From: Sulfuricurvum sp.
GTDB lineage: Bacteria; Campylobacterota; Campylobacteria; Campylobacterales; Sulfurimonadaceae
DNA length: 56,368 nucleotides
Assembly (NCBI GenBank): GCA_030696285.1
Contig: JAUYSQ010000016.1
Location: 1 to 56,368 of the forward strand
Reading direction: 5' to 3'
The notes under the pieces are model-generated. The model had not been told where the DNA came from. It did not search any database and saw only the letters and a program-made list of their open reading frames with translations. The translations under genes were made by a program, and so were the position numbers. Below, piece after piece: positions 5,269 to 24,522 of the stretch; the stretch's first letter is position 1, and each line of letters opens with the position of its first letter.

Positions 5269-5274
5269 AATCCA

Positions 5275-6852
5275 ATGAAGAGACATGTACGCTGGATTGT
5301 CATAGGTTTATTTTCATTGATCACCGGATTAACTCATGCTCAGGAAAACTTGATTCCGGAGGATTCTATTGGATTTCGTGATTTTTTGATCTTGCAAAAT
5401 GAGATCCCCGGAGTCAGTTTCAGGTTTCAAATTAAGGAGAAGCTAATTTCGGATAGGCTTCTGACTGACAGTCTTTATTTATTTATCAAAACTGACTCGG
5501 GTTTTTTATCCAAGCTTTTTTCAGACTTTGGGCAGATCAGGCAATTGGAAATGCCTCTCCATTATGATAGCCTTCAATACAAACTGCACTATTTGGTTTT
5601 TTCTGAAGTATCAAGTGTTGCTGCCACGCGGGAATACCTATCAAATCGGATACAAAGCGGAGATCTTTTAGTCCAATTTGAGGAAGTTGCTCCGTCTGAT
5701 GATTTGGTTTCTCTGGCATCGTACGCGCCATATTTACCCATGCAACGGTTTAAGTTGAGGTTTATTTCTGATTATAAGCTTTTTATAGTCACTGGGGTTA
5801 TCGCATTTTTCCTGATAATTGCAACTTCTATGATTGTGGCTATGCTTTTTATGAAAGCCAAAATAAATAAGCGGGAAAAGCTCCGCAAGGACTATGATCG
5901 GCTAATTATTGACCCCTTAACTTCCTTATTGTTTGAAAAAGAACAAGAAGAAATAGAGCTAATGAAGTTCGACGATATTTATCAGTATTTTCCTGAAGAG
6001 ATGCTGGCGAAGCCGCTGTATAAGGATGTCCTGATAGATCGGATCATCGGTTTAAATAAAAAAATGAAAGGAGATTTTAAAGAAAAGCTGAAGGCTATCT
6101 TTAAAAAACTAAGCTTAGATAAGATTTCTTTGGATTCACTCAGCAGCTCCGAATGGGATAAGGTAGCAATGGGTTTGGTACAAATTAATGAAATGGATTT
6201 GGTTGAAGCTTTGCCAAAGGTAAAAGTCCACGCCAATTCCTCAAATTTTCATATCAGGTCACAGGCTGTTGCCACCTTACTTAATTTGTCTGAAAAAGTG
6301 GATCTTACATTTTTAAGAGATCAAACTTTTCCGCTATCCCTTTGGCAGCAGATGAATTACCTTCGGATTATCAGATTTGTAAGGCATCAAAAAGATCTCA
6401 AACTCCAAATTTTGTTTGATTCCAAAAATCCAAGCATTCGCATTTTTGGATATAAATTGGTCAGTGTGTTGGGGAGGGTGGATTTGATTGAGCACCTGGC
6501 AGCCCGAACAGGCGAGGTTTCTGACGAAGAGAAAATCGAAATTTTGGAAGTCTATTCCACCTTGGGAGCCCACATGGAGGTGGGTTTTATCAATGATTGC
6601 CTGAAGTCTGAAAATGCAGAATTGTCAATGGCTGCGGCCAATGCTGCCGGATCAATCGGGGATTCAGTTTCAGCAGATATTTTGGTCGGATTGATTGCAG
6701 TTGAGACAGATTTCAGAAGAAAACATGGCTTTTTGAAAAGTCTCTATGACTTGGATAGAGACCGCTTTGAACTAGCTACATCCACAAATCCTGAAACAGA
6801 AACGATAGAAATCCTAAAACACATTTTAGACCCAATGTTGCAGCATGTATAG
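5275..6852 (+). CDS. Membrane-anchored HEAT-repeat-like protein
   Basis: 525 aa; signal peptide, central TM helix (FIVTGVIAFFLIIATSMIVAMLF), C-terminal alpha-helical repeats. Confidence 0.65.
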   Translation: MKRHVRWIVIGLFSLITGLTHAQENLIPEDSIGFRDFLILQNEIPGVSFRFQIKEKLISDRLLTDSLYLFIKTDSGFLSKLFSDFGQIRQLEMPLHYDSLQYKLHYLVFSEVSSVAATREYLSNRIQSGDLLVQFEEVAPSDDLVSLASYAPYLPMQRFKLRFISDYKLFIVTGVIAFFLIIATSMIVAMLFMKAKINKREKLRKDYDRLIIDPLTSLLFEKEQEEIELMKFDDIYQYFPEEMLAKPLYKDVLIDRIIGLNKKMKGDFKEKLKAIFKKLSLDKISLDSLSSSEWDKVAMGLVQINEMDLVEALPKVKVHANSSNFHIRSQAVATLLNLSEKVDLTFLRDQTFPLSLWQQMNYLRIIRFVRHQKDLKLQILFDSKNPSIRIFGYKLVSVLGRVDLIEHLAARTGEVSDEEKIEILEVYSTLGAHMEVGFINDCLKSENAELSMAAANAAGSIGDSVSADILVGLIAVETDFRRKHGFLKSLYDLDRDRFELATSTNPETETIEILKHILDPMLQHV

Positions 6853-8305
6853 CTTTTTGTTTTTTCTCATTTTGGAGATTTTGGGCGTGATATTTTTGGT
6901 CCTTAGTTTCTCCGTCATTTTGATTTATTTGATTTTGATGATCCTGAGTGCTCTGGAAATGCGGGATTACCTTCGTAAAAACAGATTTGCTGATTATGGG
7001 GACATCATCACCTCACCGATTGCACCTGGCGTGTCCATTCTGGCTCCGGCCTATAATGAAGGCCAAAATATCGTTCAAAATGCGCAAAGCCTACTTTCTC
7101 TTCATTATGGAAAATTTGAGGTCATCCTGATAAACGATGGCTCAAAAGATGATACACTTGAAAAACTCATTCATTTTTTTGAGCTGGAGAAGACCCATTA
7201 TGCCTATAACCCTGAGATTGAAACCAAGCCTGTCAGGGGTGTTTACCGCTCCAAAAACATGTCTTTCCGTCGACTCACTGTCATTGATAAGGAAAATGGG
7301 GGAAAAGCTGATGCTTTAAATACAGGAATTAATATTGCCGAACTGGAAATTTTAGCCTGTATCGACGTGGATTGTATTCTCTCAAGCGATTCAATTTCCA
7401 GAATGGTTCGTCCATTTATGGAGGAGACCAACCGAAAAGTAATTGCAGTCGGCGGGGTGATCGGCATTGCAAATAATTGCGATGTGCAGGACGGGACTGT
7501 GACTACCTATCGCATTCCCGAGTCACAACTTGGAAGATTTCAGGTTATCGAATACTTCCGTGCCTTTTTGATGGGTCGGATGGCTTGGTCCCGCATCAAC
7601 GGACTGATGCTGATTTCAGGCGCTTTTGGATTTTTCCGTAAGGATTTGGTCAGAAAAGTGGGGGGATATTTTCCAAAGACGGTAGGGGAAGACATGGAAT
7701 TGATTGTCCGCATGCGAAGGTATATGGAAGAGCAAAAAATACCACATAAAGTCGGCTTTGTACCTGATCCTTTATGCTGGACAGAAGTTCCTGAAAGTGA
7801 GGAGATACTATCCAAACAGCGGAACCGATGGATGAGAGGAACCATAGAGACACTTCAACTTCATCAGGCGCTAAGACTCAATCCGAAATATGGTATACTG
7901 GGAATGATTTCCTACCCTTTTTGGTCGATTTTCGAAAAGTCCGCCCCTATTCTCGAATCTGTTGGGGTACTTTATACGCTAGTTCTGCTGGTGACGGGAG
8001 ATTTTAGTGCAGTCTATTTTTTCGCATTATTAGTGATGATGTATTTATTGTCATTGCTGGTCTCATCTTTCAGTGTACTCTATGAGCAGATTGCTTTCAA
8101 CAATTACAAGGATAAGAAGGATTTGAGAAAATTAATTTGGATGATCATTATTGAGCCTTTTGTAATACATCCGAAAATCGTCCTATGGGGACTTCAGGGT
8201 CATTTTGATTTCATTAAGGGTAAAGGCGGATGGGGGTCTATGATCCGAACCGGCTTCAAAAAGGCAGAGGATAAGAAAAATTTAACACCACAATCCACGG
8301 GCTGA
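6845..8305 (+). CDS. Processive family 2 glycosyltransferase (PgaC/HmsR-like)
   Basis: 486 aa; SILAPAYNEGQNI, ENGGKADALN, DVDCIL, GEDMELIVRM, QRNRW (QxxRW), C-terminal TM helices. Confidence 0.88.
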   Translation: MYSFLFFLILEILGVIFLVLSFSVILIYLILMILSALEMRDYLRKNRFADYGDIITSPIAPGVSILAPAYNEGQNIVQNAQSLLSLHYGKFEVILINDGSKDDTLEKLIHFFELEKTHYAYNPEIETKPVRGVYRSKNMSFRRLTVIDKENGGKADALNTGINIAELEILACIDVDCILSSDSISRMVRPFMEETNRKVIAVGGVIGIANNCDVQDGTVTTYRIPESQLGRFQVIEYFRAFLMGRMAWSRINGLMLISGAFGFFRKDLVRKVGGYFPKTVGEDMELIVRMRRYMEEQKIPHKVGFVPDPLCWTEVPESEEILSKQRNRWMRGTIETLQLHQALRLNPKYGILGMISYPFWSIFEKSAPILESVGVLYTLVLLVTGDFSAVYFFALLVMMYLLSLLVSSFSVLYEQIAFNNYKDKKDLRKLIWMIIIEPFVIHPKIVLWGLQGHFDFIKGKGGWGSMIRTGFKKAEDKKNLTPQSTG

Positions 8306-9534
8306 TGAAAAAATTATTTATCGCTGTATTTTCTCTGCTTGTTTCGACCCACTCCTTGATGGCGCAGGATTCATTTGATCCTGACGAACTATTACTTCAA
8401 GCAAGAGAGTTGATTTTTTCGAAAAAGTATATTGAAGGAAGAAAAATTGCCTATCGAGCTTTGGATAAGTATCCAAACTACGCTGATATATTGATTTTGG
8501 TAGGAAGAAGTTATGCTTGGGAAGGGAAAAATGACTCAGCCAATATTTATCTGGAACGTGCTATAGTGGCCTCTCCAACTTATTCTGACGGGTATGTCGC
8601 CTACTTGGATAATTTATTTTGGTCAGAAAATTACACCAAAGCGGATGAGATTCTTGGCCGGGCAAAATCCAGTTTTGGAACTTCAATTCCGGATGAAATC
8701 ACCTACCGGGAGTCTCGCTTATTTTACTATCGTGAGCTATATAAGGAGGCTTTTGAATTAGTCAATCCCCTCTTTAAAAAGGGCTTCAAAACTGAGGGAA
8801 TGCTGGGCTACATGAAAAACCTCGAACGGTTCAGAAAGGTCAATGCTGTGGGAGCTACCTATGATTACGATACATTTGAGGGAGCCATTGAACCTTGGCA
8901 TACTTGGTCGTTCTACGGAAGAACCCGTACAAAATTGACTGGAGCCCTGATCGCCCGCGTAACTCAGTCAGCCAGATTCGATAATTTTGGGACTTTGGTA
9001 GAATTGGACGCGTATCCTAGCATCGGGAAAAACGGGTACGCCTATCTTAATGTCGGGGGTTCGGGAGCATCCTTTTTTCCAAAATTCAGATTTGGTGGTT
9101 CTTATTTCCATAATTTGGAAAAGGGATGGGAGCTAGAAGGTGGATATCGATATCTCGGCTTTTCGGCTGTCACCCATATCATTACCGGTTCTGTTGGCAA
9201 ATACACCGGAAATTGGTGGTTAAATCTGAGATTAAATGTGATTCCTGATGCAATATTAGGGGCAAGCACCTCCACACAATTTACGGCTCGATATTATTTC
9301 AAGACGGCTGAAGATTTCTTCAGCATTCAGCTCGGTACAGGGGTATCACCGGATGAAGAAACACGGGATCAATCCCAATTGCTCAATTCCTACCGAGCAA
9401 GAATTGGCTATCAACAGCTGATTTCTCCAAAGTTTATGATTTATGGATTCACTGGATACAGTCGCGATGAACTGAGTACAGACAATTTTAGAAATAACCT
9501 TAATTTATCCCTCGGATTCGAGTACCGATTCTAG
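8305..9534 (+). CDS. YaiO-type TPR plus outer-membrane beta-barrel protein
   Basis: 409 aa; signal peptide, N-terminal TPR-like segment, C-terminal barrel strands ending in LGFEYRF. Confidence 0.75.
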   Translation: MKKLFIAVFSLLVSTHSLMAQDSFDPDELLLQARELIFSKKYIEGRKIAYRALDKYPNYADILILVGRSYAWEGKNDSANIYLERAIVASPTYSDGYVAYLDNLFWSENYTKADEILGRAKSSFGTSIPDEITYRESRLFYYRELYKEAFELVNPLFKKGFKTEGMLGYMKNLERFRKVNAVGATYDYDTFEGAIEPWHTWSFYGRTRTKLTGALIARVTQSARFDNFGTLVELDAYPSIGKNGYAYLNVGGSGASFFPKFRFGGSYFHNLEKGWELEGGYRYLGFSAVTHIITGSVGKYTGNWWLNLRLNVIPDAILGASTSTQFTARYYFKTAEDFFSIQLGTGVSPDEETRDQSQLLNSYRARIGYQQLISPKFMIYGFTGYSRDELSTDNFRNNLNLSLGFEYRF

Positions 9535-9545
9535 GCAGAAGCATT

Positions 9546-10715
9546 ATGAAAGAAGAATTAAAGGGTTTCCTTATTCGGCTTTGGCCACTATTCTTATTGT
9601 TTGTGGGTCTTCCACTGTTCAGCTTTGCGATCTGGTATTTATTGCCGGGCAAAAAGCTGGACATTTTGGTCATAGACAAAACTGTGAAAGATCAGAGTTA
9701 CCAAGAGCATGCTGGACTTTTTTGGAGTTTAAATCATTTGAAATACAAAAAATCTGATGGTGAATTTTATCAGATTGACAAGGATTATTTGGGGTTTTTC
9801 CCTACAGGTAAAAAAGATTTTGGCATAAGTAAAGACTTGAAAGGCAAGTCACAGGAGGAAATCCGGAGTATAGTCAGGCAGAAAGATCTTGTTTACATTG
9901 CCGACACCTATGGAGTGTATGAAGGTGATTTTTCAGAAAACAAAAAAGAACAAATCACCAAAAAGATTTATGGAGGATTGGACTTTCCCGAACTTCAAAT
10001 GATTCGGATGGCTAAAGAGGAAGGCAAAGTGGTAGTGGCTGAATACAATTCAATTGCTTCGCCTACGCCAAAAGCAATTCGGACGGAATTTGAAAATCTG
10101 ATGGGAATCAAATGGACGGGATGGATTGGTCGCTACTTCGATGAATTGGATACCATGGTCAATGGAGATATTCCTGGTTGGATGATCCGGCAATACGAAC
10201 GTCAACACGAAATTTGGAATCTAAGCGGCCCGGGATTGATTTTCATTAAAGAAAGCGGTGAAATTGAGGCCTTTGTTCATACTCGGGATTATGAAAACAA
10301 GATTCCACTTATTCGTACTCAGAAAATTAACAAGCATGGATTCAAACTGCCCGAAGTGGTACCGTATCCAGATTGGTTTGATGTGGTGATGATCGAACGG
10401 GACTATCAAGTGATTTCCTATTATGATATTGCTCCCACTTCACAAGGTTTGCAACGGATGAGGAGCATGGGATTACCGAGATTTTTTCCGGCTGCAATCG
10501 TCAGGAATTTTAAAAAAGGCAGTCAATACTATTTTTCCGGTGACTATTCTGATATAAGAGGAGACTTTGGGTCCCATCGTTTCTATGGATTGCCTACGCT
10601 TTGGCGTGGGCTTTATGTTGCCTCAGATTATACGGATCGTCAGAGTTTTTTCTGGAATTACTACCTCCCTTTAGTTACTCAGGTCTTAGACAAAAGCAAA
10701 AAAGAATCCAACTAA
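9546..10715 (+). CDS. Membrane-anchored protein of unknown function, possible GATase/ThuA-like fold
   Basis: 389 aa; one N-terminal TM; alternating beta/alpha pattern (LDILVIDKTVKDQSYQEHAGLFWSLNHL...LVYIADTYGVYEGDF...KVVVAEYNS). Confidence 0.5.
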   Translation: MKEELKGFLIRLWPLFLLFVGLPLFSFAIWYLLPGKKLDILVIDKTVKDQSYQEHAGLFWSLNHLKYKKSDGEFYQIDKDYLGFFPTGKKDFGISKDLKGKSQEEIRSIVRQKDLVYIADTYGVYEGDFSENKKEQITKKIYGGLDFPELQMIRMAKEEGKVVVAEYNSIASPTPKAIRTEFENLMGIKWTGWIGRYFDELDTMVNGDIPGWMIRQYERQHEIWNLSGPGLIFIKESGEIEAFVHTRDYENKIPLIRTQKINKHGFKLPEVVPYPDWFDVVMIERDYQVISYYDIAPTSQGLQRMRSMGLPRFFPAAIVRNFKKGSQYYFSGDYSDIRGDFGSHRFYGLPTLWRGLYVASDYTDRQSFFWNYYLPLVTQVLDKSKKESN

Positions 10716-10730
10716 CAAATTGAAAAACCG

Positions 10731-12734
10731 CTATCGAATTGGCAAAAGCTTTCTGGTTTGGACCATATAGCTGTTTTTGTTTTTAAATTCCTCAAACTCT
10801 CCATTTAGTCTGTTAAGGGCGTCATTGTCTTCAATTGGATCAATATTCATCCCGTCAGAAACAAGGAAAACCTGACCGTCGGAAAGAAAGAACTCTCCGT
10901 GAATGTAATCCAGAAGTTGGTTTTTGTTTCGCATCAAGGGCATTGCCAATAGGGATTGGAAGTTTCTTGCGGTGTCCAATACCTGTCCTTGCCAGATAAC
11001 TTCCTCTGGAAGTGTCACCAAGTTTTGTTTTTCCAGCATGGCCAGGAGCGAAGGGGTAATTTCATAATGACTTGCTACCCCCTTGAAATAATCCCTGCGT
11101 TTCAACAAGGGGGAATAAATAAGCAGCGGCACATGAAACCGATCAATCCTGGAGACCATGGGGATTTCGGGAAGCCGGTGATCGCCCGTAATAATGAAGA
11201 TGGTATTGGAAAACTCAGGACGATTTTTATACGCATTGATGAACAATTTCACTGCATCATCTGCATATAATATGGTCATATAGATGTCCTGATAGGACAT
11301 ATACTCAGAGATTTTTGCATTGCTCAGATTTAGATAATTGCGCAGGTGATTTTGGAGTTTTTCCTGATAAAATTCTCTTTCCGGGACAATGTAAGGATCA
11401 TGAGAGGTTTGCATTTGAAAGATCCGCAATTGAGGGGCTGTTCGTTCGCTGGGCAGTTTTTGAAGTCCATTAAGAAAAAGATCCTTATCGGGATACCCCC
11501 AGGAAAAGCCGCTTTTAGAAGGAGTTTTAGTGAATTGCGGCAGAAAAGTAGATTCATCTTCCAACTGAACTGGCTTTTGGTAGTTTAGGAAATCCGCTAC
11601 CCGGTCAAAATTTTTGTCAGCACCTATAAAATATCGGGTTTCGTAGTCATTATCCCCCAAAACGCTGAGGAGGGATTGATGATGTGGGAATTCCTGATAG
11701 AGTTCGAGGAATCCTTTTTCACCAAAAGGAAGGCCTCCAAATACACCCGGGAGCAGTCCGAAAGTCCGTCCTGTTGAGGACAACGCATTGGTCCAGACAA
11801 GGCTGTGCTGTTCAAGTGAATCGAGGAATGGGGTGAAGCTTCCCAGGTATGCATCTCTTCCGGAGTAGGCTTTTCCAAGACTTTCCACAAAAATAAAAAC
11901 CAAATCAGGAGCCTGGGTCAGACTATCGAAAAATGGGCTTAGAACGTCAGGATAATTGTTCTTATGAAGAAAAGGAAACTCGTCATTGGTAAAATCTTTT
12001 TTCACCAACAGATCATCGTTTGTTCCTCGTAGGTAAAAATCAAAATAAAACTCGCCTCCGTACATCCAGTGGTCAAAGGATTCTTCTGTCAGATATTTGG
12101 ACTTATTCAGTGCAATATTCCGTTTGGTTTCATCGGCATCCAAATTGGAATTTCTGGGAATCAAAGTCATGATCAAAAGTCCGAGAAAAAGAAAGGCGGT
12201 CAATCCTGCGTAGAATTTCAGTCCAAACCTGGAAACTTTGATCCCCAGATAAAGTAGGCCCAAAATCAAAGCAATAGCCAAACTTCCAAAAATCAGATTA
12301 AGTGTATTTAACTGACCTGAAGCGGATACAGTCAAGACAAGGTCATTCCAATTATAGGCAAAAAGATCTTTTCCGAGCGGCACTAGTGTCTTCGTGAAAT
12401 AAAATACCAGGCCCAAGTGAGCAATCAGAAAAATGGTCAGTGTTATCTGAAGTAAGATTCGTGCTAAAAGCGCAGAAATAAGACTTAATATTCCATAAAT
12501 TATAAATAGCAGTCCCAGAAAATAGAACAACCAGCCGGCGTCCTGATATAAACCTGACCAAAGGACTTCAGCGATAGAAAAATTTAAAACATGTGTTTGA
12601 AATACCAGAATAACCTCAGCAATTCGAAATAGAATTATCAATCCGGTAAAAATCAGGGCCATACCCCAAAAATTTCTTAAGATGTTCTGAACACGAAGTG
12701 GGAGTGTGGAGCGGATTTCAGCCTTTTGGGCCAT
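10731..12734 (-). CDS. LTA synthase/sulfatase-family membrane phosphoglycerol transferase-like protein
   Basis: 667 aa; N-terminal TM helices; LVFIFVESLGKAYSG, SSTGRTFGLLPGVFGGLP, FIITGDHRLPE. Confidence 0.85.
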   Translation of the reverse strand: MAQKAEIRSTLPLRVQNILRNFWGMALIFTGLIILFRIAEVILVFQTHVLNFSIAEVLWSGLYQDAGWLFYFLGLLFIIYGILSLISALLARILLQITLTIFLIAHLGLVFYFTKTLVPLGKDLFAYNWNDLVLTVSASGQLNTLNLIFGSLAIALILGLLYLGIKVSRFGLKFYAGLTAFLFLGLLIMTLIPRNSNLDADETKRNIALNKSKYLTEESFDHWMYGGEFYFDFYLRGTNDDLLVKKDFTNDEFPFLHKNNYPDVLSPFFDSLTQAPDLVFIFVESLGKAYSGRDAYLGSFTPFLDSLEQHSLVWTNALSSTGRTFGLLPGVFGGLPFGEKGFLELYQEFPHHQSLLSVLGDNDYETRYFIGADKNFDRVADFLNYQKPVQLEDESTFLPQFTKTPSKSGFSWGYPDKDLFLNGLQKLPSERTAPQLRIFQMQTSHDPYIVPEREFYQEKLQNHLRNYLNLSNAKISEYMSYQDIYMTILYADDAVKLFINAYKNRPEFSNTIFIITGDHRLPEIPMVSRIDRFHVPLLIYSPLLKRRDYFKGVASHYEITPSLLAMLEKQNLVTLPEEVIWQGQVLDTARNFQSLLAMPLMRNKNQLLDYIHGEFFLSDGQVFLVSDGMNIDPIEDNDALNRLNGEFEEFKNKNSYMVQTRKLLPIR

Positions 12735-12811
12735 ATTGTGCGGTTAAGTTTTTTGAATATGAGATTTAATATAGGGCAAAACAGGGTATCTTCAGCCGTT
12801 ATTTCAAATAT

Positions 12812-13354
12812 ATGAGTAAATCAGATTTGTTATTGGAGCTTTACTCCAATTTAAGTACAACAGGAGCACTTACCTTTAGCTCCAAAGCCTTAGTCAATAA
12901 AATGCTTTCATACACAGATATTGCCAATGCCAAGTTGGTGGTAGAACTTGGTGGAGGGGATGGAAGTATCACACAAGGGATCATAGACAGACTTTCACCC
13001 GATGCAGAGCTAATGGTATTTGAAATAAACCGATCTTTTTGTGATGCCATGGAAAAGCAGTTTCCCATGCCGAATGTCCAAATAATTTGTGATTCAGCAG
13101 AGAATTTAGAGCTTTATCTGAAAGGAAGAAAAGTGGATTATGTTTTGTCGTCCCTGCCTTTTAGTTTAATCTCCAAGGAGGCTACAGATCAGATTCTATA
13201 CCATACCAAAAACTCACTCAACGAAAAAGGGAAATTTATCCAGATTTGCTATTCCTATTTGCTAAAAAAACTTTTCGGAAAATACTTTTCAAAAATTGAA
13301 ACTAAGTTCACTATGCGGAATTTGCCACCTGCTTTTGTCATGATTTGTCATTAA
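12812..13354 (+). CDS. SAM-dependent methyltransferase (phospholipid N-methyltransferase/rRNA dimethylase-like)
   Basis: 180 aa; VVELGGGDGSITQGI, VFEINRSF, DYVLSSLPFS. Confidence 0.75.
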   Translation: MSKSDLLLELYSNLSTTGALTFSSKALVNKMLSYTDIANAKLVVELGGGDGSITQGIIDRLSPDAELMVFEINRSFCDAMEKQFPMPNVQIICDSAENLELYLKGRKVDYVLSSLPFSLISKEATDQILYHTKNSLNEKGKFIQICYSYLLKKLFGKYFSKIETKFTMRNLPPAFVMICH

Positions 13355-13358
13355 AAAA

Positions 13359-13613
13359 ATGCCTGTGGAAGTACTCCGAACAGCCATATTTGATTTTTGT
13401 AGAAGGAGAAAGAAGAAAACATTTTGCCCATCCGAGGTAGTTCGGCAGCTATTTCCGCAGGATTGGGAGCTTTTTATGCCTGATATCCACGAGGAGATGA
13501 TGCAGATGTACCGTGAAGGACTGATTGAGGTGACTCAAAAGGGTAATCCCATCGACCCTAACCAGAACCCCAGAGGTCCTGTGAGGATTTCCGGACTTGC
13601 CAAACCAAAGTGA
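13359..13613 (+). CDS. DUF3253-like protein
   Basis: 84 aa; FCPSEVVRQLFPQDWELFMPDIHEEMMQMYREGLIEVTQKGNPIDPNQNPRGPVRI. Confidence 0.7.
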   Translation: MPVEVLRTAIFDFCRRRKKKTFCPSEVVRQLFPQDWELFMPDIHEEMMQMYREGLIEVTQKGNPIDPNQNPRGPVRISGLAKPK

Positions 13614-13646
13614 TTACCCTGGTGTTATCCCCTAAATTTAATCCCC

Positions 13647-14228
13647 ATGAACTTAGAACAAGCACTTCCAAAAACAACTATTGAAATTACCGACGGCTTT
13701 GAGCTGATTACCCTTGGTGCAGGTTGCTTTTGGTGCACCGAAGCTGTTTTCCAGCGATTGGAAGGGGTGGAAAAAGTCATTTCAGGATATGCAGGGGGGA
13801 TTATTCCCAACCCTACGTATAAGCAAATCTGCACCGGGACGACCGGACATGCAGAGGTTATCAATGTTTATTTTGACCCAAAGAAAATCAGCTTGGAGAA
13901 TTTACTTGAAGTTTTTTGGGCAACACATGATCCCACTACACTCAACAGACAGGGAGGAGATGCAGGGCCGCAATACCGCTCGGCTATTTTTTATCATAAT
14001 GAAACTCAAAAGGAAATTGCTTCAAAACATAAAGCTGAACTGAATGGCAGTAAGGTTTTTGACAATCCTATCGTGACTGAGATTACCGCATTCACCAATT
14101 TTTATCCGGCTGAAAATTACCACCAGGACTATTTTAATCTGAACGGAATGCAGCCCTATTGCCAGTTTGTAGTCCGCCCAAAAGTTGAAAAGCTGAAGAA
14201 GTATTTTGGGGAGAAGTTAAAAAAGTGA
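13647..14228 (+). CDS. msrA: Peptide-methionine (S)-S-oxide reductase
   Basis: 193 aa; GAGCFWCTEAVFQRLEGV, GYAGG, NPTYKQICTGTTGHAEV, FYPAENYHQDYF. Confidence 0.95.
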   Translation: MNLEQALPKTTIEITDGFELITLGAGCFWCTEAVFQRLEGVEKVISGYAGGIIPNPTYKQICTGTTGHAEVINVYFDPKKISLENLLEVFWATHDPTTLNRQGGDAGPQYRSAIFYHNETQKEIASKHKAELNGSKVFDNPIVTEITAFTNFYPAENYHQDYFNLNGMQPYCQFVVRPKVEKLKKYFGEKLKK

Positions 14229-14373
14229 GTATAGGGCAGGGAAAGGGTGTCTGGGGTCTGGAGAAAGAATGGAAGTGTTTTTTAAAGATCTGGTTTTAAT
14301 AATATTGGCAATTCAAAAATCCATTCTTTACATTCAATTAACCTAAGGAGGGATTTAGTTCGCCAAAAAGGAC

Positions 14374-14381
14374 TACTTTTG
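14374..14381 (+). promoter_or_regulatory. Bacteroidetes-type -7 element TACTTTTG
   Basis: Matches TAnnTTTG, 29 bp upstream of the ATG at 14410; -33 element not clear. Confidence 0.45.
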
Positions 14382-14409
14382 TAGAATTTAACCTTTTTAA
14401 AAAAATAGA

Positions 14410-16077
14410 ATGAAACGAACCAGAGCACAAGAGTCCAGAGCAGCCATTGAGCGATTGTACATTACGATGCGCCATCTTTTTAACAGAGGTAGCTACAAGC
14501 CATTGGGTGTTTCCGGTGAAGGACTTATCAGTGCACTGATGACTTTAAGTCCGGAGATTTATGGTTTGGTTACCGATTCCGAAAAGTTGGAACTCGATGG
14601 ATTGCTCTATGTGATGGAGCGTCTGCCCAGAGGGATTGAGGAATGCCGCTACGTACGCTTGATTAGTCGTGAGGGGTATGAAACCTCTCATTTGACACCA
14701 CTCATCCCGGCCAAAAGAAAGCGTAATTGCTATCGATTGGATCATCAGATTATGTACGTGGAGATGACCCGTGGTCGGTCTGACATCTACGATATCCTGA
14801 CTCACCTTACATTCCTATACATCGAATCCCAAAAAATTCTGCGAAACAGCACCGACCCAAAAGGTAGACTTTCTTCCAATTGGACCATGCTGGCTGATTT
14901 TGTGAAAAAAGAACAGGATGGGGAGGAGTTTGACAAAGAATCTGCCAGTGCTTATTTGAGTCATTTGATCGGAAGAACTTTTGAGGAGACCCGAGACGCA
15001 GTAGATAAGTTTGAGAGTAGCAGTAATTCAAACAGTCTTTTTTCCATCGTGTATTACCTCGGGAAACTGGCCATGGATGAAGCGACAGAAGGATTGGATC
15101 GTGAGATAAGCTTCTCTGCGACCTTGCGAGAGCGAGTGGGGCATCACGTCTATGGAGAACTTTGGGCAGACCGAATCAAGGAAACACTACTGAATCTGGA
15201 TCTGCTTAAACGTCCGATTCATATCATCTCAGCCAATCTTCACAGCGTCCTGAATACCATCTATGGTCATCAGGCATTGGGATTGAAGTCATATGAGGAA
15301 ATCGAGCAGGTAGTGATGGATATTTCTGTCAAAGCAAAAAATAACCACGGAAAGAAAATTCGTGATTATGCGGAGAAACATGGATTCATCGATCTTCCTG
15401 ACGAGTCAGGTACAAATATCGGAGCACAGATCATTGATACGGCCTGGCTTGAAAAATCGACCTTAATCCCTGGTGTTGCCCTTCCGGAAGAAAAAGAAAA
15501 GCGTCCGGTTTTCGTGGTAATGGATTATGCTTTTGGGGAGCAAGCCTATGAGTGCTTTGACGAATTATTGAAAAAATATAATGTGGGCGAAAAGGAGTAT
15601 TCGCTGAATGTCATTTCGACTTCCATTATGGGGAAAGCAGGAATTTTACACGGCGGAAAAGGAGACTTAATGGTTCCGGATTCACACGTGTTCGAAGGAA
15701 CTGCCGATAATTATCCCTTCAGGAATGAGCTGAAAAAAGCAGACTTCGAAGGATATGGTTTGGGAGTCTATACCGGATCAATGGTAACTGTCTTGGGTAC
15801 ATCCCTGCAAAACCGGGATATCCTCACCTATTTCATGAAGTCCTCTTGGCATGCCGTGGGACTGGAGATGGAAGGGGCGCATTATCAAAAAGCCATCCAA
15901 TCCGCTTCCAAGATCCGAAAAAGCATCCGCTCCAATGTAAAAGTGCTCTATGCCTATTATGCCTCGGACAACCCACTGGAGACGGGAAGTACTTTGGCCT
16001 CGGGAGCTTTGGGAATGGAGGGCGTTCGCCCAACTTACCTGATCACTTATAAAATTTTGGAAAAACTGTTTGGTTAA
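14410..16077 (+). CDS. Uncharacterised Bacteroidetes-type protein with nucleosidase/PNP-like C-terminal motifs
   Basis: 555 aa; C-terminus has GKAGILHGGKGDLMVPDSHVFEGT, VGLEMEGAHYQKAI, YYASDNPLETG. Confidence 0.6.
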   Translation: MKRTRAQESRAAIERLYITMRHLFNRGSYKPLGVSGEGLISALMTLSPEIYGLVTDSEKLELDGLLYVMERLPRGIEECRYVRLISREGYETSHLTPLIPAKRKRNCYRLDHQIMYVEMTRGRSDIYDILTHLTFLYIESQKILRNSTDPKGRLSSNWTMLADFVKKEQDGEEFDKESASAYLSHLIGRTFEETRDAVDKFESSSNSNSLFSIVYYLGKLAMDEATEGLDREISFSATLRERVGHHVYGELWADRIKETLLNLDLLKRPIHIISANLHSVLNTIYGHQALGLKSYEEIEQVVMDISVKAKNNHGKKIRDYAEKHGFIDLPDESGTNIGAQIIDTAWLEKSTLIPGVALPEEKEKRPVFVVMDYAFGEQAYECFDELLKKYNVGEKEYSLNVISTSIMGKAGILHGGKGDLMVPDSHVFEGTADNYPFRNELKKADFEGYGLGVYTGSMVTVLGTSLQNRDILTYFMKSSWHAVGLEMEGAHYQKAIQSASKIRKSIRSNVKVLYAYYASDNPLETGSTLASGALGMEGVRPTYLITYKILEKLFG

Positions 16078-16108
16078 GCCCTTTAAAAGAGAATTCTAAC
16101 TATTTAAA

Positions 16109-16141
16109 AAAGCGGTAGCCAAATTTTGGCTACCGCTTTTT
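16109..16141. terminator. Bidirectional intrinsic terminator between convergent genes
   Basis: AAAAGCGGTAGCCAAAATTTTGGCTACCGCTTTTT perfect hairpin between ORFs ending at 16077 (+) and 16155 (-). Confidence 0.9.
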
Positions 16142-16154
16142 GCTTTCATTAAAC

Positions 16155-16610
16155 TCAAGGCTTTTCCACTCGAGTGGAATGAAGCATATCCAATCGCCAC
16201 CCTGCATTGGTTTTCACTGCTGTGGCACTTTCCAGCCACTTGATTTCACGGATCACTTCTCCATCCCGGGTGATCGTCGCATAATTCCAATAGCCCACCC
16301 AAGCCCGATTTCCTTCTACTTTGGTCTGAATAAATTCAAAACGATTGGTTCGGGTAGGAGGATTGGGATTGGCCTGAGCCCGAGTCAGGTAGTTTTGGAT
16401 AAAAGCCATATCCCAAATTTCCCCCTGCTCGAAGAGTAAGAAATCAGGGGTGTAGAAATTTGGAAGCAAGTCTGAATTGAACTCTGAAAAGATCCCATCA
16501 AAGGAATCCTGAATCAGTTGTTGCACTTGCTTTTCATCGGATGGAATTGCGTTTTGAGCGAAAGCAGCTGTGTTTAGTAGAAGGAAGAGTAGGAGATAGA
16601 CAGTTTTCAT
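16155..16610 (-). CDS. Secreted SnoaL/NTF2-like (DUF4440-type) protein
   Basis: Start placed at MKTVYLLLFLLLNTAAFAQ (signal peptide) rather than the ORF-track start 16664; NTF2-like pattern. Confidence 0.65.
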   Translation of the reverse strand: MKTVYLLLFLLLNTAAFAQNAIPSDEKQVQQLIQDSFDGIFSEFNSDLLPNFYTPDFLLFEQGEIWDMAFIQNYLTRAQANPNPPTRTNRFEFIQTKVEGNRAWVGYWNYATITRDGEVIREIKWLESATAVKTNAGWRLDMLHSTRVEKP

Positions 16611-16664
16611 AGGAAAGGGGATTCGATTAGTAAAAGCTTCAATCTCTTTGGAGGATTTTCCCAA

Positions 16665-18116
16665 TCAATAGCCTGCATTCAAAGGAGGAGGACCATCAGG
16701 AACAATTCCTTTATAGACATAATCTCCTTTTCTGGCTTTGAATTCCGCTTTGATTTCGTTTCGGAGGGTTTCGTTTTGGTAGAGATCAACCATAGTCATG
16801 GCAAGTGCTTTGGCTGCGTAACCCATCCCTTTGTGCCCGATGGACATTCCTCCCGAGGCTACCACCGCCCAGGAATGCCAAGGTGTGCCGTTTGGTGCCG
16901 TGGTCGCGGTCATACGAATCGTGGGTACTACCCAACTCACATCACCGACATCGGTACTTCCTCCCATGCTGTGTTCCAATGTCTCTTCCAGTGGTTTGAT
17001 GACTGATACCAGCCCGATCTGAGGTTTTCCGGTAGCTTCCTGAATCTTTTTGGCGAATGATTGCTCTTCCTCGGTGTAGGTGATTGGCCCAAGTGCTTCC
17101 AGATTGGTTTGCATAGCAACTGATCCGCTTCGGTTTACCAAAATCTCATGCACGCCAGAGACCAAAGTAACCTTGTGGCTGACATTGGCCAAAATTGCTG
17201 CCCCTTCTGCCATTTTCTCCACCTGCTTCCAGACAGGCATTAAGCCTTCTCGACTGGTATCTCTTACCCGTACCCAAAGTCTGCTATAGTCCGGCACCAC
17301 ATTGACTACCTGACCTCCGTCCTGAATGTGGTAGTGCATTCTCACGGTTGGTTTGACGTGTTCGCGGAAATAGTTGATTCCGTTGGTATAAAGTTCCAAT
17401 GCATCAGAAGCAGAACGACCATTCCATGGATCAGCGGAAGCATGAGCGGCTTGACCGTTGAATTCTACTATAAAATCAACCAAAGCCAGACCTTTTTGAA
17501 CGTCGGTTTTGGTTTGATCCTCAGGATGCCAATCCATCATGATATCCACATCATCCATCAGTCCAGCCCGAAGCATCCAGAGTTTGCCAAAGAATTTTTC
17601 CTCAGCAGGAGTTCCATAGAATCGGATGGTCCCTTTGATTTTTCCGTCGGCAATGAGATCCTTTATCGCTCCTGCGGCACTGAGTGAAGCCACACCAAAT
17701 AGATTGTGACCGCAACCGTGCCCGGGGGCATCTTCATGAAGTGGGCTTTTAAAAGGAACTTTGTTCTGTGAAAGACCGGGAAGTCCGTCAAACTCTCCCA
17801 TAATACCGATGATGGGGCTACCCGAGCCGTATTCTGCCACGAATGCCGTTGGGATTTCCCCTACGCCACGAGTCACCTTGAATCCGAGTTCTTCAGCATA
17901 GGCAGAGAGGGCTGCTGAAGACTTGACTTCTTGAAAGGCAATTTCTTCGAAAGCCCAAATTTGATCGCTAAGCTCAGTCATTGCAGCAAATCGGGATTCG
18001 ATGGTGAGCTGGACAGTTTGCTTTAAGGGATTAGGCTTTGTTGTATTTTTTTGGGCAAAAAGGGGAGAAGTAGCGCTGATAAATGCCGCAGCTATTACTA
18101 AATAGCGTTTTTTCAT
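16665..18116 (-). CDS. Secreted M20-family amidohydrolase (AbgB-like)
   Basis: 483 aa; GIMGEFDGLPGLSQ, APGHGCGHNLFG, MMDWHPED, AHASADPWNGRSA, STDVGDVSWVVP. Confidence 0.88.
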   Translation of the reverse strand: MKKRYLVIAAAFISATSPLFAQKNTTKPNPLKQTVQLTIESRFAAMTELSDQIWAFEEIAFQEVKSSAALSAYAEELGFKVTRGVGEIPTAFVAEYGSGSPIIGIMGEFDGLPGLSQNKVPFKSPLHEDAPGHGCGHNLFGVASLSAAGAIKDLIADGKIKGTIRFYGTPAEEKFFGKLWMLRAGLMDDVDIMMDWHPEDQTKTDVQKGLALVDFIVEFNGQAAHASADPWNGRSASDALELYTNGINYFREHVKPTVRMHYHIQDGGQVVNVVPDYSRLWVRVRDTSREGLMPVWKQVEKMAEGAAILANVSHKVTLVSGVHEILVNRSGSVAMQTNLEALGPITYTEEEQSFAKKIQEATGKPQIGLVSVIKPLEETLEHSMGGSTDVGDVSWVVPTIRMTATTAPNGTPWHSWAVVASGGMSIGHKGMGYAAKALAMTMVDLYQNETLRNEIKAEFKARKGDYVYKGIVPDGPPPLNAGY

Positions 18117-18300
18117 GATGATTGGTGGTCTTGTAAGGTTTTATAGGGATAAGATAAGCATGGATTTGGAATCTGAGAAAGTTTTCTGCCAGTCCTGGAG
18201 TCATTCTTTTAGAAATGAAGGTAGTGAGTCATTGGAATAGCTATTTTTACAGCTGAGTGAATGTCAAAGCTCAGGTAATTATAAACCGTAAATCCAACTC

Positions 18301-19008
18301 ATGAACTTCCATTATTTATCCGATTTTTCAGAAATGAGCAGAAAGGGTTTCGAGCTAGTCAAAGCTGAAATCGACAAAAAACCTGATTTGCTTTTCTGCG
18401 TCGCAAGTGGTGGGTCACCTTCCGGACTTTATTCCGAAATGAAAACTTTTCAAGATCAAAATCCCGATTTCTGTTCTAAACTCAGAGTAGTAAAATTGGA
18501 CGAATGGGGAGGTTTGGAGGTAGGGTCGACATTTACTTCTGAGCATGATGTGCAGAGTAAGTTTATCCAGCCATTGGGGATTTCCAAAGATCGGTATTTG
18601 ACCTTTGACCCATTTGCAGCAGATCCTGAGGAAGAATGCAAGCGGATGAAGGGTGAATTACGGCTATCAGAAATTGACATTTGCATCCTTGGAATAGGAG
18701 TAAACGGGCATATTGCACTAAATGAACCAGCTGAAATCCTGCAATCCGGTTTTCATATTGCGCAGTTGGCCGAAAGCACGTTGAATAATGGGATGATTAA
18801 ATCACTAAAGCAGCTGCCGACTTTTGGGATGACGATGGGAGTGGGGGAGATATTGAGGTCTAAAAAAATTCTGCTGTTTATCTCAGGATCGGGAAAGAAA
18901 GCTGCTTTTGAGAAATTGTTGAACGAGGAAGTGAGTACCCAATGTCCGGCATCACTGCTTTGGCTTCATCCGAATGTGGACGTTTTGGTAGATAAGCGTG
19001 TGATTTAA
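18301..19008 (+). CDS. Glucosamine-6-phosphate deaminase/6-phosphogluconolactonase-family protein
   Basis: 235 aa; FCVASGGSPSGLY, VVKLDEWGG, CILGIGVNGHIALNEPAE. Confidence 0.85.
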   Translation: MNFHYLSDFSEMSRKGFELVKAEIDKKPDLLFCVASGGSPSGLYSEMKTFQDQNPDFCSKLRVVKLDEWGGLEVGSTFTSEHDVQSKFIQPLGISKDRYLTFDPFAADPEEECKRMKGELRLSEIDICILGIGVNGHIALNEPAEILQSGFHIAQLAESTLNNGMIKSLKQLPTFGMTMGVGEILRSKKILLFISGSGKKAAFEKLLNEEVSTQCPASLLWLHPNVDVLVDKRVI

Positions 19009-19192
19009 AAATTTTGTTGATGGTGTAATTTTTTGCCAGAATAAAAGGCAAATCAATAGACTTGAGCCAATAATGTCAGACAAAAGCGATCAAAAATCAG
19101 TAAGCGTGATGATTTTTCCTTCATTTTGAAAAATTATTTCTTTGAAATTGAACCAGATAAGGGATGGGTTCCAAAAATATTCAAACCATATA

Positions 19193-19222
19193 TTGCATGG
19201 AAAGAGCAAATACCTACCTTTG
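19193..19222 (+). promoter_or_regulatory. Bacteroidetes promoter (TTG - 19 bp - TAccTTTG) for tRNA-Asp
   Basis: TTG at 19193-19195, 19-bp spacer, TACCTTTG at 19215-19222; 29 nt upstream of the tRNA 5' end. Confidence 0.7.
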
Positions 19223-19251
19223 CATCACTTCAAACGAGAAGGACAAAAAAC

Positions 19252-19328
19252 GGAGTGGTAGTTCAGCTGGTTAGAATGCCTGCCTGTCACGCAGGAGGTC
19301 GCGGGTTCGAGTCCCGTCGACTGCGCCA
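19252..19328 (+). tRNA. tRNA-Asp(GTC), chimeric: 5' acceptor strand does not pair with 3' acceptor strand
   Basis: Anticodon loop CTGTCAC; 5' GGAGTGG needs CCACTCC but 3' strand is CGACTGC (mismatches at acceptor pairs 2 and 6); encoded CCA. Confidence 0.85.
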
Positions 19329-19352
19329 TTAGTTTTATATATTTCGATTTTC

Positions 19353-19428
19353 GGGAGTTTAGCTCAGTTGGTAGAGCGCTACCCTTACAAGGTAGATGTC
19401 ACAAGTTCGAGTCTTGTAATTCCCACCA
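19353..19428 (+). tRNA. tRNA-Val(TAC)
   Basis: GGGAGTT/AATTCCC acceptor, anticodon loop CTTACAA, TTCGAGT T-loop, encoded CCA. Confidence 0.95.
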
Positions 19429-19435
19429 TAGTTGT

Positions 19436-19512
19436 GCAGTCGTAGTTCAGTTGGTTAGAACGCCTGCCTGTCACGCAGGAGGTCGCGGGTTCGAGTCCCG
19501 TCGACTGCGCCA
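19436..19512 (+). tRNA. tRNA-Asp(GTC), intact
   Basis: GCAGTCG/CGACTGC perfect acceptor; anticodon loop CTGTCAC; encoded CCA. Confidence 0.97.
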
Positions 19513-19636: not shown

Positions 19637-21055
19637 ATGCAAAAAAATATTACACAAATCACTATTAAAAGATTACTGCCTCTGCTATTAAGTTTGATGC
19701 TATTGAGTATTATCGTTATTGGCTTAAACTTTCGTTCACTCGTTTTGATGAGTATGGAAGAGCATATTCTTTCCATTGCACAGATGACTAAGGCTAGTTT
19801 AACGGCCCATATGAAAGCAGGCATGATGGAAAGACGTGCTTATTTTCTCAATGAAATAGCCGAAGTTCCTCATGTCAAAAGCCTTATGATCATCCGTTCC
19901 AATGAAGTAAATGAACAATTTGGCAATAGCTCTAGTGGTGAAAAAAAAATGGATCCCTACCTAAATGGTATTCTTCAATCCAAGGAACCCTATTTTACTA
20001 TGACAGAGTGGGATGAAAAAGCGACCATGCGTGCTGTAGTCCCTTATATTGCTACGTCTAAAGGAAATCTGAACTGCTTACAATGCCACCATGTCCCGGA
20101 AAATACCGTACTCGGCGCTATCGACATTGAGCTAGACATAACGGAGTATCGAAACGGGGCGTGGACGTATCTGCTGATTCTCTTTGGGATTATCTCTTTC
20201 TTTACCATTGCGATTATCTTCAGTACTTCTCACGTAATTGAGCAATTTGTACGTAAACCGTTACTTGAACTGATACAGCTGGCCAAAGCAGTATTTTTCC
20301 GTACTGATCTCAAGGGACATACAATGTTTCAGAGTGAAGAATTCACCGAGGTGGCTTCACAGTTTCTAAAATTTGGCGAGGAGCTCAAGGAGCGCGAAGC
20401 GAGAATCGAACAAAGAACGATAGAGTTTCAATCATTGAATAACGAGATCGATACTACGCTTAAAGAAACGCTATTCGCAATGGGCGAGGCAGAAGAGAAA
20501 CGTTCCAATGAAACACACAATCATACGAGGCGTGTCGTAGAATATAGCCGTCTACTTGGGGAACTTGTGGGACTGGAAGAGTTGGAGATCGACCTGCTGA
20601 CAACGGCGGCCCCATTGCACGATATCGGCAAAATCGGAATTCCTGATTCTATACTGTTGAAACCAGGAAAGCTGGATAAAGAAGAGCGCGCAATCATCGA
20701 AATGCACGCAACGATAGGGTATGATATTTTAAAACACTCCGAGCGCAATGTATTACAAACTGCTGCAATAATTGCCCATGAACATCATGAAAGATGGGAC
20801 GGTTTAGGTTATCCGATGGGAATAAAAAGGGAAGAGATACATATATTTGGACGCATTGTCGCCATTGCAGATGTGTTTGATGCATTAGGAACAAAACGCG
20901 TTTATAAAGAAGCTTGGCCTCTAGAGGAAGTGCGAGAGTATTTTAAACAAGAACGGGGAAAAGCCTTCGATCCGCAGTTAGTAGATTTACTTGTACAACA
21001 TTATCATCAATTTGAAGCGCTTTACAATATACATTATAATGATGAAATGTTATGA
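19637..21055 (+). CDS. HD-GYP phosphodiesterase with N-terminal periplasmic DUF3365/Tll0287-like c-heme sensor
   Basis: 472 aa; TM - periplasmic - TM; CLQCH heme motif; HDIGKIGIPDSILLKPG, HHERWDGLGYP, ADVFDAL. Confidence 0.88.
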   Translation: MQKNITQITIKRLLPLLLSLMLLSIIVIGLNFRSLVLMSMEEHILSIAQMTKASLTAHMKAGMMERRAYFLNEIAEVPHVKSLMIIRSNEVNEQFGNSSSGEKKMDPYLNGILQSKEPYFTMTEWDEKATMRAVVPYIATSKGNLNCLQCHHVPENTVLGAIDIELDITEYRNGAWTYLLILFGIISFFTIAIIFSTSHVIEQFVRKPLLELIQLAKAVFFRTDLKGHTMFQSEEFTEVASQFLKFGEELKEREARIEQRTIEFQSLNNEIDTTLKETLFAMGEAEEKRSNETHNHTRRVVEYSRLLGELVGLEELEIDLLTTAAPLHDIGKIGIPDSILLKPGKLDKEERAIIEMHATIGYDILKHSERNVLQTAAIIAHEHHERWDGLGYPMGIKREEIHIFGRIVAIADVFDALGTKRVYKEAWPLEEVREYFKQERGKAFDPQLVDLLVQHYHQFEALYNIHYNDEML

Positions 21056-21630
21056 AACTTAACCGCATACTTCTTAGTTTGTATCTTTTAATATGGATTT
21101 TTCTCAGCATTGACCCCTGGTATCGTGAAGACTGGCTATTGGAAAATCTCTTAGTCTTTATTGCACTGCCGATTCTAATCTGGAGTGATCGCCGTTTTGG
21201 TTTTTCAAACACAAGTGTGTGGATGCTCTTCATCTTTTTTGTGTTGCATGGAATCGGTGCGCACTATACCTACAGTGAGATGCCGTGGTTCTCAACGATT
21301 ACAGAGTTTTTCGGGTTTGAACGCAATCATTACGATCGGCTCATCCATTTTTTATACGGATTCTTATTATTTCTTCCGTTCTACGAATTCTTCATCACCT
21401 TTCAAAAATCGAAACGGACTACTCTGCTTTTCACCTTTCTTTTTCTCGTTGCTTCTTCGGGAGTTTATGAAGTGATCGAATGGATAGCAACCGAGATGAC
21501 CCATGCGCAACTCGGTATGGCATTTTTAGGCACGCAGGGAGATGAATGGGATGCTCAAAAAGATATGAGTTGCGGACACTTGGGGAGTTTACTGGGACTT
21601 TTATTCTGGTATCGTAAAAAGCACCTATAA
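21052..21630 (+). CDS. DUF2238 (YjdF-like) inner-membrane protein
   Basis: 192 aa polytopic; HYDRLIHFLYGFL, VYEVIEW, GDEWDAQKDM. Confidence 0.8.
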   Translation: MKLNRILLSLYLLIWIFLSIDPWYREDWLLENLLVFIALPILIWSDRRFGFSNTSVWMLFIFFVLHGIGAHYTYSEMPWFSTITEFFGFERNHYDRLIHFLYGFLLFLPFYEFFITFQKSKRTTLLFTFLFLVASSGVYEVIEWIATEMTHAQLGMAFLGTQGDEWDAQKDMSCGHLGSLLGLLFWYRKKHL

Positions 21631-21653
21631 ATTCTATATTTATCCCTTTTAGG

Positions 21654-22988
21654 TTAAAGCTTTTTAGCAACCGTACCTTTTGGATGATGATACCATCCCG
21701 GATCGGTGTAATCGTCTTTAAGCTGATTACGGCGTACTTTGACGACCGTAAACATCCCCCCCATCTCGATCGGACCGAATGGCCCACGACCCGTCATCAT
21801 CGGCAACGTATTTTCAGGAAGTTTCATCCCCATTTCCACCATATCACTCATCTCCGCCATCCCGTTTTTGCCCATCGGCATGTACATATAGTCCGGCATA
21901 AGGTCACTGATTTTTTCGGTTAGATCGTCTTGTTTCACACCAATCATATTGGGAACACTGTGTCCCATCGGTCCCATTGTATGGTGTGATTTATGACAAT
22001 GAAATGACCAATCTCCCTCTTCGGTCGCGACAAATTCAAATGCCCTCATTTGCCCCACCCCAACATCAACAGTCACTTCAGGCCACCGTGCACTTTTAGG
22101 AACCCATCCCCCATCGGTGCAGGTCACCTCAAACGGATGGCCATGCATATGAATCGGATGGTTTGTCATCGTTAGATTACCGACACGGATACGGACGCGA
22201 TCCCCTACACGTACATTCATCGAATCGATCCCCGGAAAAGTACGTGAATTAAAGGTCCAGAGGTTAAATTCGGTCATTGTCGAGGGATTTGGGGTATACG
22301 TACCGGGGGCTACATCATAGCTCGCTAACAAAAAACAAAAATCACGATCAACACGGTGCTCTTTGGGGGTTTTCGGATGGATAATAAACATCCCCATAGA
22401 GCCCATCGCCATCTGCACCATCTCATCGGCATGTGGATGGTACATAAATGTCCCGCTTTGGCGGAGCGTAAACTCGTACACATAGGTCTCGCCCGGTGCG
22501 ATTTGTGGCTGGGTGAGTCCTCCTACCCCATCCATACCATTGGGCAGGATCAACCCGTGCCAATGTATCGTCGTATGTTCGGGAAGTTTATTGGTCACGA
22601 TGAGTCGTACAAGGTCTCCCTCCACTGCTTCGATAGTCGGCCCTGGGGAAGTGCCGTTGTATCCCCAGCAGTTTACGACCATTCCGGGCGAAAACTCACG
22701 TACGACCGGTTCAGCGATCAAATGGAACTCTTTGACCCCCTCTTTCATCTCGTAAGGAAGACTCCAGCCGTTTAGCGTCACGACAGGATTGTAGTTTTTC
22801 CCCTCTTTAGGGGTGATAAGGGTAGCAGGAGACAATACGCGTTTAGGATTTTTCACGAGAGTGAGCTGCCGTTTTTGAGGCGGTATTTCACAATGACTTT
22901 TTTCTTCCGCATGTATGCTGGAGGTAAGTGCTGCGTGAGCTATCAATGCGGCACCCAAACCTAGAAAATCGCGTCTATCGTGTCCCAT
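21654..22988 (-). CDS. Multicopper oxidase with Tat-type signal
   Basis: 444 aa; DRRDFLGLGAALIAHAA; HWHG, HPHADEM, HPIHMHGHPFEV, HCHKSHHTMGPMG; Met-rich segment near C-terminus. Confidence 0.9.
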   Translation of the reverse strand: MGHDRRDFLGLGAALIAHAALTSSIHAEEKSHCEIPPQKRQLTLVKNPKRVLSPATLITPKEGKNYNPVVTLNGWSLPYEMKEGVKEFHLIAEPVVREFSPGMVVNCWGYNGTSPGPTIEAVEGDLVRLIVTNKLPEHTTIHWHGLILPNGMDGVGGLTQPQIAPGETYVYEFTLRQSGTFMYHPHADEMVQMAMGSMGMFIIHPKTPKEHRVDRDFCFLLASYDVAPGTYTPNPSTMTEFNLWTFNSRTFPGIDSMNVRVGDRVRIRVGNLTMTNHPIHMHGHPFEVTCTDGGWVPKSARWPEVTVDVGVGQMRAFEFVATEEGDWSFHCHKSHHTMGPMGHSVPNMIGVKQDDLTEKISDLMPDYMYMPMGKNGMAEMSDMVEMGMKLPENTLPMMTGRGPFGPIEMGGMFTVVKVRRNQLKDDYTDPGWYHHPKGTVAKKL

Positions 22989-24328
22989 TAGAGTTTCCCT
23001 CCTATCGTATATTCTAAATCGGCTTGAGCCTTTTGATACTCTCCCAGTGCATCGAGGGATTCCATCTTTACCTCACCTGCACGACGCTGATCTTCAAGCA
23101 GCTCATAAATACCATCCAGCATCCCGTTGTAAAAAAGCTGTGTCTCCCCTAAAATCTGCTGATTTGTTTTTACGATCACCTCATCATATTCATGGGCGAT
23201 ATCATAACTATAACGGAGTTGTGCATACCCTTCACGTACCTCGGAGCGGATATTGACCGCCGTTTCATAAAGATGATGAACACTTTGGTTGTAGAGTGTT
23301 TGAGCCTTGCTCACGCGCCCTTGTCCGAAATCAAAAATAGGAATCGGGATTTTGACACCAAACGTATTAAACCGTTTTTCATCGGTTGTTTTTTCACTTT
23401 CCACTGAAAGGTCAACGTCACTGAGCAGCCGTGTATTTTCACTGTATCCGAGTTGCTTAGCAGCGTAATCAACCCCCTTGATAGCAGCAGCCATATCAAG
23501 ACGGTTGGAAATCGCCATTTTTTCCAAACCAACGTCTGAGGTGATAGGGGAATTAAGCTTTAAAGGCTGCGTACTGAGAAAATAGTGTGTTTGTTCCCCA
23601 TATAATCCCAATGTTTTATTCAAAGCTTCACGTGCCGTTGCGTTTTGACGAGCCAGCTTGATCGACTCTATCCGCGTATGTTCATAACTGTCTTGTATTT
23701 TCAACATATTACGTTTCGAGAGATTTCCGGCAGTGTATTGACGCACAGCTAACTGGAGCGTAGCTTCATGTGATTTTAAAATCGAACGGTATAGTGTCAC
23801 TCTCTCTTGGGCTAGACGTGCATCAACATAGCTCTTCTTTGCATCTCTTACCGTACGTAAGACGGTATCACCGACACGTGCTTTTGTCTCTTCGAGTGCC
23901 AATCCCCCCAACTCACGACGTAAAGGAATCCAAAGAAGATCCAAAAATGCCACTTCAATACTCAATGTCGAGGTGGTAACGCCGCTGCTTCGTCCCACAC
24001 TGTAACCTAAAAGCGGATTACGCATCAATCCAGCCTCCAGCAACTCACTCTGAGAAATGCCAATTTCTCCGTAGGTTTGTTGCAATGAACGATTATTGAG
24101 TAATGTAATACGCACAGTATTCTCTTCATTCAACGGTTGAGAAAGAAGTATTTTCACACTCTCATCGACTTTTGCAGCTTCTTGCGGAGTTTTAATCCAT
24201 TGAAGGTTCTGCGCCCCGCGCATTGTCGCCATTTGATTCACCGAGTCAAATACTTCATTCTGAGAAAGTGTCGAACAACCAGAAAAAATGATGAATGAAC
24301 CGAATACTACGCTGAGATTTCTAATCAT
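22988..24328 (-). CDS. TolC/CusC-family outer-membrane lipoprotein
   Basis: Start placed at MIRNLSVVFGSFIIFSGCS (lipobox); coiled-coil efflux OMP pattern. Confidence 0.8.
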   Translation of the reverse strand: MIRNLSVVFGSFIIFSGCSTLSQNEVFDSVNQMATMRGAQNLQWIKTPQEAAKVDESVKILLSQPLNEENTVRITLLNNRSLQQTYGEIGISQSELLEAGLMRNPLLGYSVGRSSGVTTSTLSIEVAFLDLLWIPLRRELGGLALEETKARVGDTVLRTVRDAKKSYVDARLAQERVTLYRSILKSHEATLQLAVRQYTAGNLSKRNMLKIQDSYEHTRIESIKLARQNATAREALNKTLGLYGEQTHYFLSTQPLKLNSPITSDVGLEKMAISNRLDMAAAIKGVDYAAKQLGYSENTRLLSDVDLSVESEKTTDEKRFNTFGVKIPIPIFDFGQGRVSKAQTLYNQSVHHLYETAVNIRSEVREGYAQLRYSYDIAHEYDEVIVKTNQQILGETQLFYNGMLDGIYELLEDQRRAGEVKMESLDALGEYQKAQADLEYTIGGKL

Positions 24329-24522
24329 TGTGCGCGTCCATACCCTGTTGTGTTTTGATCCTCTTTTTGAACACATCCCTCTTCAACGACATCCACTGCA
24401 GGTACCGGCGGAACATAGACGCTTTTGCCCTGCAATGCATCCGGAGAAGTAGGTATCATTTTCACCTCATTCGCATCAAGGCTCATGATCAGTGTTAAAA
24501 AAACCATGATAAAACGGCTCAT
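24325..24522 (-). CDS. Small secreted protein in a copper operon
   Basis: 65 aa; N-terminal hydrophobic signal; 4-nt overlaps with both neighbouring genes. Confidence 0.6.
   Translation of the reverse strand: MSRFIMVFLTLIMSLDANEVKMIPTSPDALQGKSVYVPPVPAVDVVEEGCVQKEDQNTTGYGRAQ

Follow-up and report, generated by a model that had tools for sequence, protein, structure and literature searches.

The stretch of DNA analysed here (the window) is the whole of contig C288, 56,368 bp long, from an assembly whose 295 contigs total 2.39 Mb. ARAGORN places three tRNA genes on its forward strand: a tRNA-Asp at 19252–19328, a tRNA-Val(TAC) at 19353–19428, and a second tRNA-Asp(GTC) at 19436–19512. To the left, positions 1–19251 carry genes for amidohydrolases, a response regulator, a glycosyltransferase, a YaiO barrel protein, a sulfatase, a methyltransferase, msrA, a DUF6909 protein, an M20 peptidase, and a nagB-like protein. 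To the right, positions 19513–56368 carry genes for an HD-GYP protein, a DUF2238 protein, a copper oxidase and efflux protein, mutY-like and ttcA-like genes, fabD, tol-pal, the atp operon, parAB, fmt, a proB-like gene, obg, and an RND pump.

The two tRNA-Asp genes differ in their acceptor stems. All seven pairs form in the second copy, while the first has G-G oppositions at pair 2 and at pair 6 and lacks the seven-pair stem of a functional tRNA-Asp. Rfam scores are 54.8 bits for the first copy, 74.3 bits for the second, and 67.9 bits for the tRNA-Asp genes of Algoriphagus. Compared with shuffled sequence, the second copy folds better (z −2.01) but the first does not (z 0.46); the Algoriphagus tRNA has an intermediate value (z −1.63). 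Among 40 copies of tRNA-Asp in the host’s genus and order, there is no identical match to the first copy. A previous sequence-only reading had proposed that the contig is joined from two genomes within this gene, on the grounds of mismatches at pairs 2 and 6, perfect pairing of the same 3′ strand in the second gene, an identity of 51 nt between the copies (19278–19328), and a Bacteroidetes-type promoter. Both mismatches and the seven pairs of the second copy were confirmed, the 51-nt identity is exact, and the promoter (TTGC ... TACCTTTGC) is present and common to Algoriphagus loci.

The left side of the window can be traced to Algoriphagus. When genomes were scanned for matches to the DUF6909 protein (14410–16077), A. 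alkaliphilus DSM 22703 came first, with a protein identity of 99%, ahead of other members of Algoriphagus and of Cyclobacteriaceae. At the DNA level, A. alkaliphilus matches the window at ~96% identity over 49–2893, 2919–6500, 6411–16115, and 16791–19326, and at 85% over 16133–16619, so that 49–19318 is covered apart from short gaps and with gene order kept. The public A. alkaliphilus assembly covers this stretch with two contigs and breaks between ~16.1 and 16.8 kb of the window. Fourteen of the 15 left-hand proteins match the Algoriphagus-group loci that were fetched, and the DNA of the remaining one (5275–6852) matches A. alkaliphilus. Against host-genus loci, none of the 15 was matched, and none lies near the tRNA array in relatives; the nagB-like protein had weak matches alone (25–27% identity), in two of 40 relatives. 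The DUF6909 family (PF21850), a protein of unknown function, is strongly conserved across Bacteroidota, at 56–99% identity in 80 loci. Copies of a ~130-bp region that surrounds the start of the 1414–2802 gene (2797–2927) occur at dozens of sites in A. alkaliphilus, with ~70–100% identity, which suggests a dispersed short repeat of Algoriphagus. Positions 1–48, unlike the rest of the left side, have no match in A. alkaliphilus and are AT-rich with near-repeats.

The right side belongs to the host. An array of the form Lys-Glu-(Val-Asp)n, whole or partial, was found in all 22 genus loci retrieved; relatives have the order cinA-Lys-Glu-(Val-Asp)1–3, with cinA upstream of tRNA-Lys in 21 loci (64–90% identity) and the remaining locus cut by a contig end. 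The array tRNA-Glu of several relatives (L012:1205–1280, L020:1222–1297, and L029:2079–2154) has an unusually low Rfam score, 42–44 bits vs. ~69–75 for its neighbours. The tRNA-Val of the window is a member of this array, and the intact second tRNA-Asp has identical counterparts in L010, L011, and L012. Downstream, the assignment of 19513–56368 to the host chromosome rests on synteny with six genus loci over ~21–34 kb, on protein families, and on composition. The DUF2238 gene (21052–21630) and the genes at 25.3–33.8 kb have syntenic matches in most of these six longer loci, right-side genes with matches share genus synteny at ~67–95% protein identity, and none of the right-hand genes matched the Algoriphagus loci. 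The best PDB matches of Soj (ParA) and ParB are 6IUB and 4UMK, which we take to be Helicobacter pylori proteins, and the order fmt-parA-parB-atp-tol-pal presumably points to Campylobacterota; because of these matches and this order, the host is assigned to that phylum.

The host’s own upstream region is found on another contig of the same assembly, C225 (3,218 bp; G000:C225:1–3218, loci L122 and L002), which carries cinA, tRNA-Lys, and tRNA-Glu and breaks off 54 nt into a tRNA-Val, these 54 nt being the same as 19353–19406. C225 is likely the true left neighbour of the window from 19319 onward; the natural order would run from C225 through the rest of tRNA-Val and a tRNA-Asp to 19319.

Composition follows the same division. 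In 3-kb windows, the log-likelihood of tetranucleotides under Algoriphagus vs. the host genus, trained on sequences from other genomes with the window excluded and A. alkaliphilus included, ranges from +43 to +81 per kb as far as 19 kb. From 19–22 kb onward it is −62 to −135 per kb, so that zero is crossed at the join. This comparison had been proposed along with the suggestion of Bacteroidetes genes on the left and core Campylobacterota genes on the right, and both suggestions agree with what we find. Matches of one side to the other side’s relatives were absent, and judging from sequence it is almost certain that the left 19 kb and the right 37 kb of C288 come from different organisms.

The point of change can be placed closely. 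An A. alkaliphilus locus (L139) agrees base for base with the window in the 60 nt that precede the tRNA and in the first 67 nt of the gene (19252–19318 of the window, L139:2463–2529). The match to Algoriphagus includes the nagB-like gene and the promoter of the tRNA, continues through 67 nt of tRNA-Asp, and stops at 19319. Algoriphagus continues as CATTCCGC-TTATAG vs. CGACTGCGCCA in the window; reading from tRNA position 67, with the first C as the last shared base, the A. alkaliphilus locus compares with the window as CATTCCGC-TTATAGCC vs. CGACTGCGCCA-TTAGTTTT, and its tRNA continues unlike the window. Six other Algoriphagus tRNA-Asp copies (L045, L049, L050) equal 19252–19318 of the window and have the same CATTCCGC end, which is without an encoded CCA. 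The window’s end is that of the host’s second tRNA-Asp and of the copies in L010–L012, so 19319–19352 can be read as the 3′ end of the host’s first tRNA-Asp, with its encoded CCA, and the spacer to tRNA-Val. Since the Algoriphagus match ends at 19318 and the 3′ end is the host’s, the join lies at or left of 19318, a firm right limit from the sequence comparison. The left limit depends on the host’s missing first copy. If it resembled the second copy, whose longest exact match to Algoriphagus is 41 nt, the limit would be 19278. Many relatives have a T at position 26 of tRNA-Asp, however, and the commonest copy of the genus has 52 nt in common with Algoriphagus, 51 of them lying no further right than the tRNA position that corresponds to 19318; if the host’s first copy were of this type, it would share 51 nt (19268–19318) and the limit could shift to 19268. 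The sequence-only reading had put the crossover between 19278 and about 19318. The right end of this interval agrees with A. alkaliphilus, whose tRNA shows no difference from the window until after 19318; the left end holds if the host’s first copy equals the second and moves to 19268 for a genus-type copy.

We hold with great confidence, from these comparisons, that C288 is a chimera of an Algoriphagus strain near A. alkaliphilus and the host species, joined inside tRNA-Asp. The proposed breakpoint thus stands, with both parents traced and the host’s true upstream sequence located on C225, and the switch is sharp and falls within sequence common to both parents (41–51 nt of tRNA-Asp). The first tRNA-Asp is an artefact of known kind, not a real feature, and the chimeric gene is probably absent from every cell. 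As to how the join arose, the assembler would have entered the host copy from that of Algoriphagus via the common word of 41–51 nt; the tandem Val-Asp-Val-Asp repeat of the host may have aided this misjoin, its upstream part (cinA-Lys-Glu-Val) being split off as C225, and 19 kb of Bacteroidota genes would have been brought into the bin. The 54-nt overlap with C225 has the length expected of a de Bruijn graph with k = 55 and hints at that value for this assembly; a search for shared contig ends that could corroborate it gave no overlaps among the 58 unmasked ends, many short contigs being masked. The earlier suggestion that 51 nt is about one assembly k-mer is plausible.

Some points count against this explanation. 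First, a common word of 41 nt is shorter than 55, and many assemblies finish with longer k-mers than that; a crossing by the assembler would then call for a stage at smaller k, for overlapping tips to be joined, or for a host copy sharing 51 nt, and a chimeric fragment is another possible mechanism. Second, the assembly is rated 100% complete with 4.26% contamination, though 19 kb that lack marker genes would have little effect on these ratings. In three narrow checks for wider contamination, ribosomal protein S9 is single copy, the T9SS tail family TIGR04183 had no match in the assembly, and, in favour of the chimera, the A. alkaliphilus locus L042 as query gave no strong match in the assembly outside C288; together they leave room for other foreign contigs.

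A variant of the chimera explanation is that the join was made during library preparation, by template switching within the shared tRNA sequence. The shared word would permit this and the join would look alike, yet chimeric fragments are usually rare, the assembler would have to favour one over the true paths, and the broken tandem repeat at C225 points instead to ambiguity in the graph, so we regard this origin as unlikely. Assembler error and chimeric library fragment leave the same trace, and the feature is an artefact either way.

A genuine horizontal transfer would mean that a piece of the Algoriphagus chromosome, 19 kb or more in length, entered the host’s first tRNA-Asp by recombination or integration and left a hybrid gene. 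In its favour, tRNA genes are common integration sites, the boundary in C288 lies inside one, the common 41–51 nt resembles an attachment core of tens of bases such as genomic islands have, and the left end of C288 is open, leaving a second junction out of sight. Normally, integration at a tRNA keeps the 5′ part of the host gene and restores an intact 3′ end, with the foreign DNA downstream. In C288 the polarity is wrong, as the foreign DNA and a foreign promoter stand 5′ of the gene and the product is an unrestored tRNA with two acceptor mismatches. Integrase, recombinase, transposase, and relaxase families were not found among the left-hand proteins searched, the far end of a supposed island being outside the contig. 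Moreover, the cargo is a normal stretch of Algoriphagus chromosome whose order is kept and whose 96% identity extends to the intergenic DNA, and it retains its foreign composition in full. The polarity, the missing integrase, and the ordinary chromosomal synteny led us to reject a tRNA-integrated island, and we consider transfer of any kind very improbable. A natural variant of the host tRNA-Asp with a foreign-looking 5′ half, as from gene conversion, can be practically dismissed: the gene does occupy the array position of the first Asp in the Val-Asp-Val-Asp of relatives, but two of its seven acceptor pairs are broken, the host’s cinA-Lys-Glu-Val sits elsewhere (on C225), and all 19 kb upstream of the tRNA are also Algoriphagus, which already contradicts this reading.

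Contigs that join different organisms are a well-known class of error in metagenome assemblies, and GUNC is directed at them (PMC8201837). C288 is like such chimeras in carrying two lineages with a sharp switch in sequence conserved between both. It is unlike them in that the missing host end is identified (C225) and in that knowledge of both parent sequences places the breakpoint within ~50 nt. Compared with the A. alkaliphilus chromosome, which the left side resembles in identity and gene order, one difference lies in the tRNA-Asp, which in A. alkaliphilus has the matching 3′ half. The value of the finding is practical only: gene-neighbourhood or transfer claims across 19.3 kb would be false, the left 19 kb are to be dropped from the genome bin, and the contig is to be split at 19252–19319. 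A mismatched acceptor stem can flag a join between phyla to within ~50 bases, even in a well-rated assembly.

Within the host part of the window, the HD-GYP gene separates the tRNA array from the DUF2238 gene, and the copper oxidase/efflux pair follows DUF2238 (19637–24376). Neither the HD-GYP gene nor the copper pair is present at the corresponding place in the six relatives. The copper oxidase is ~71% identical to Burkholderia plasmid proteins, so this may be an acquired accessory region of the host.
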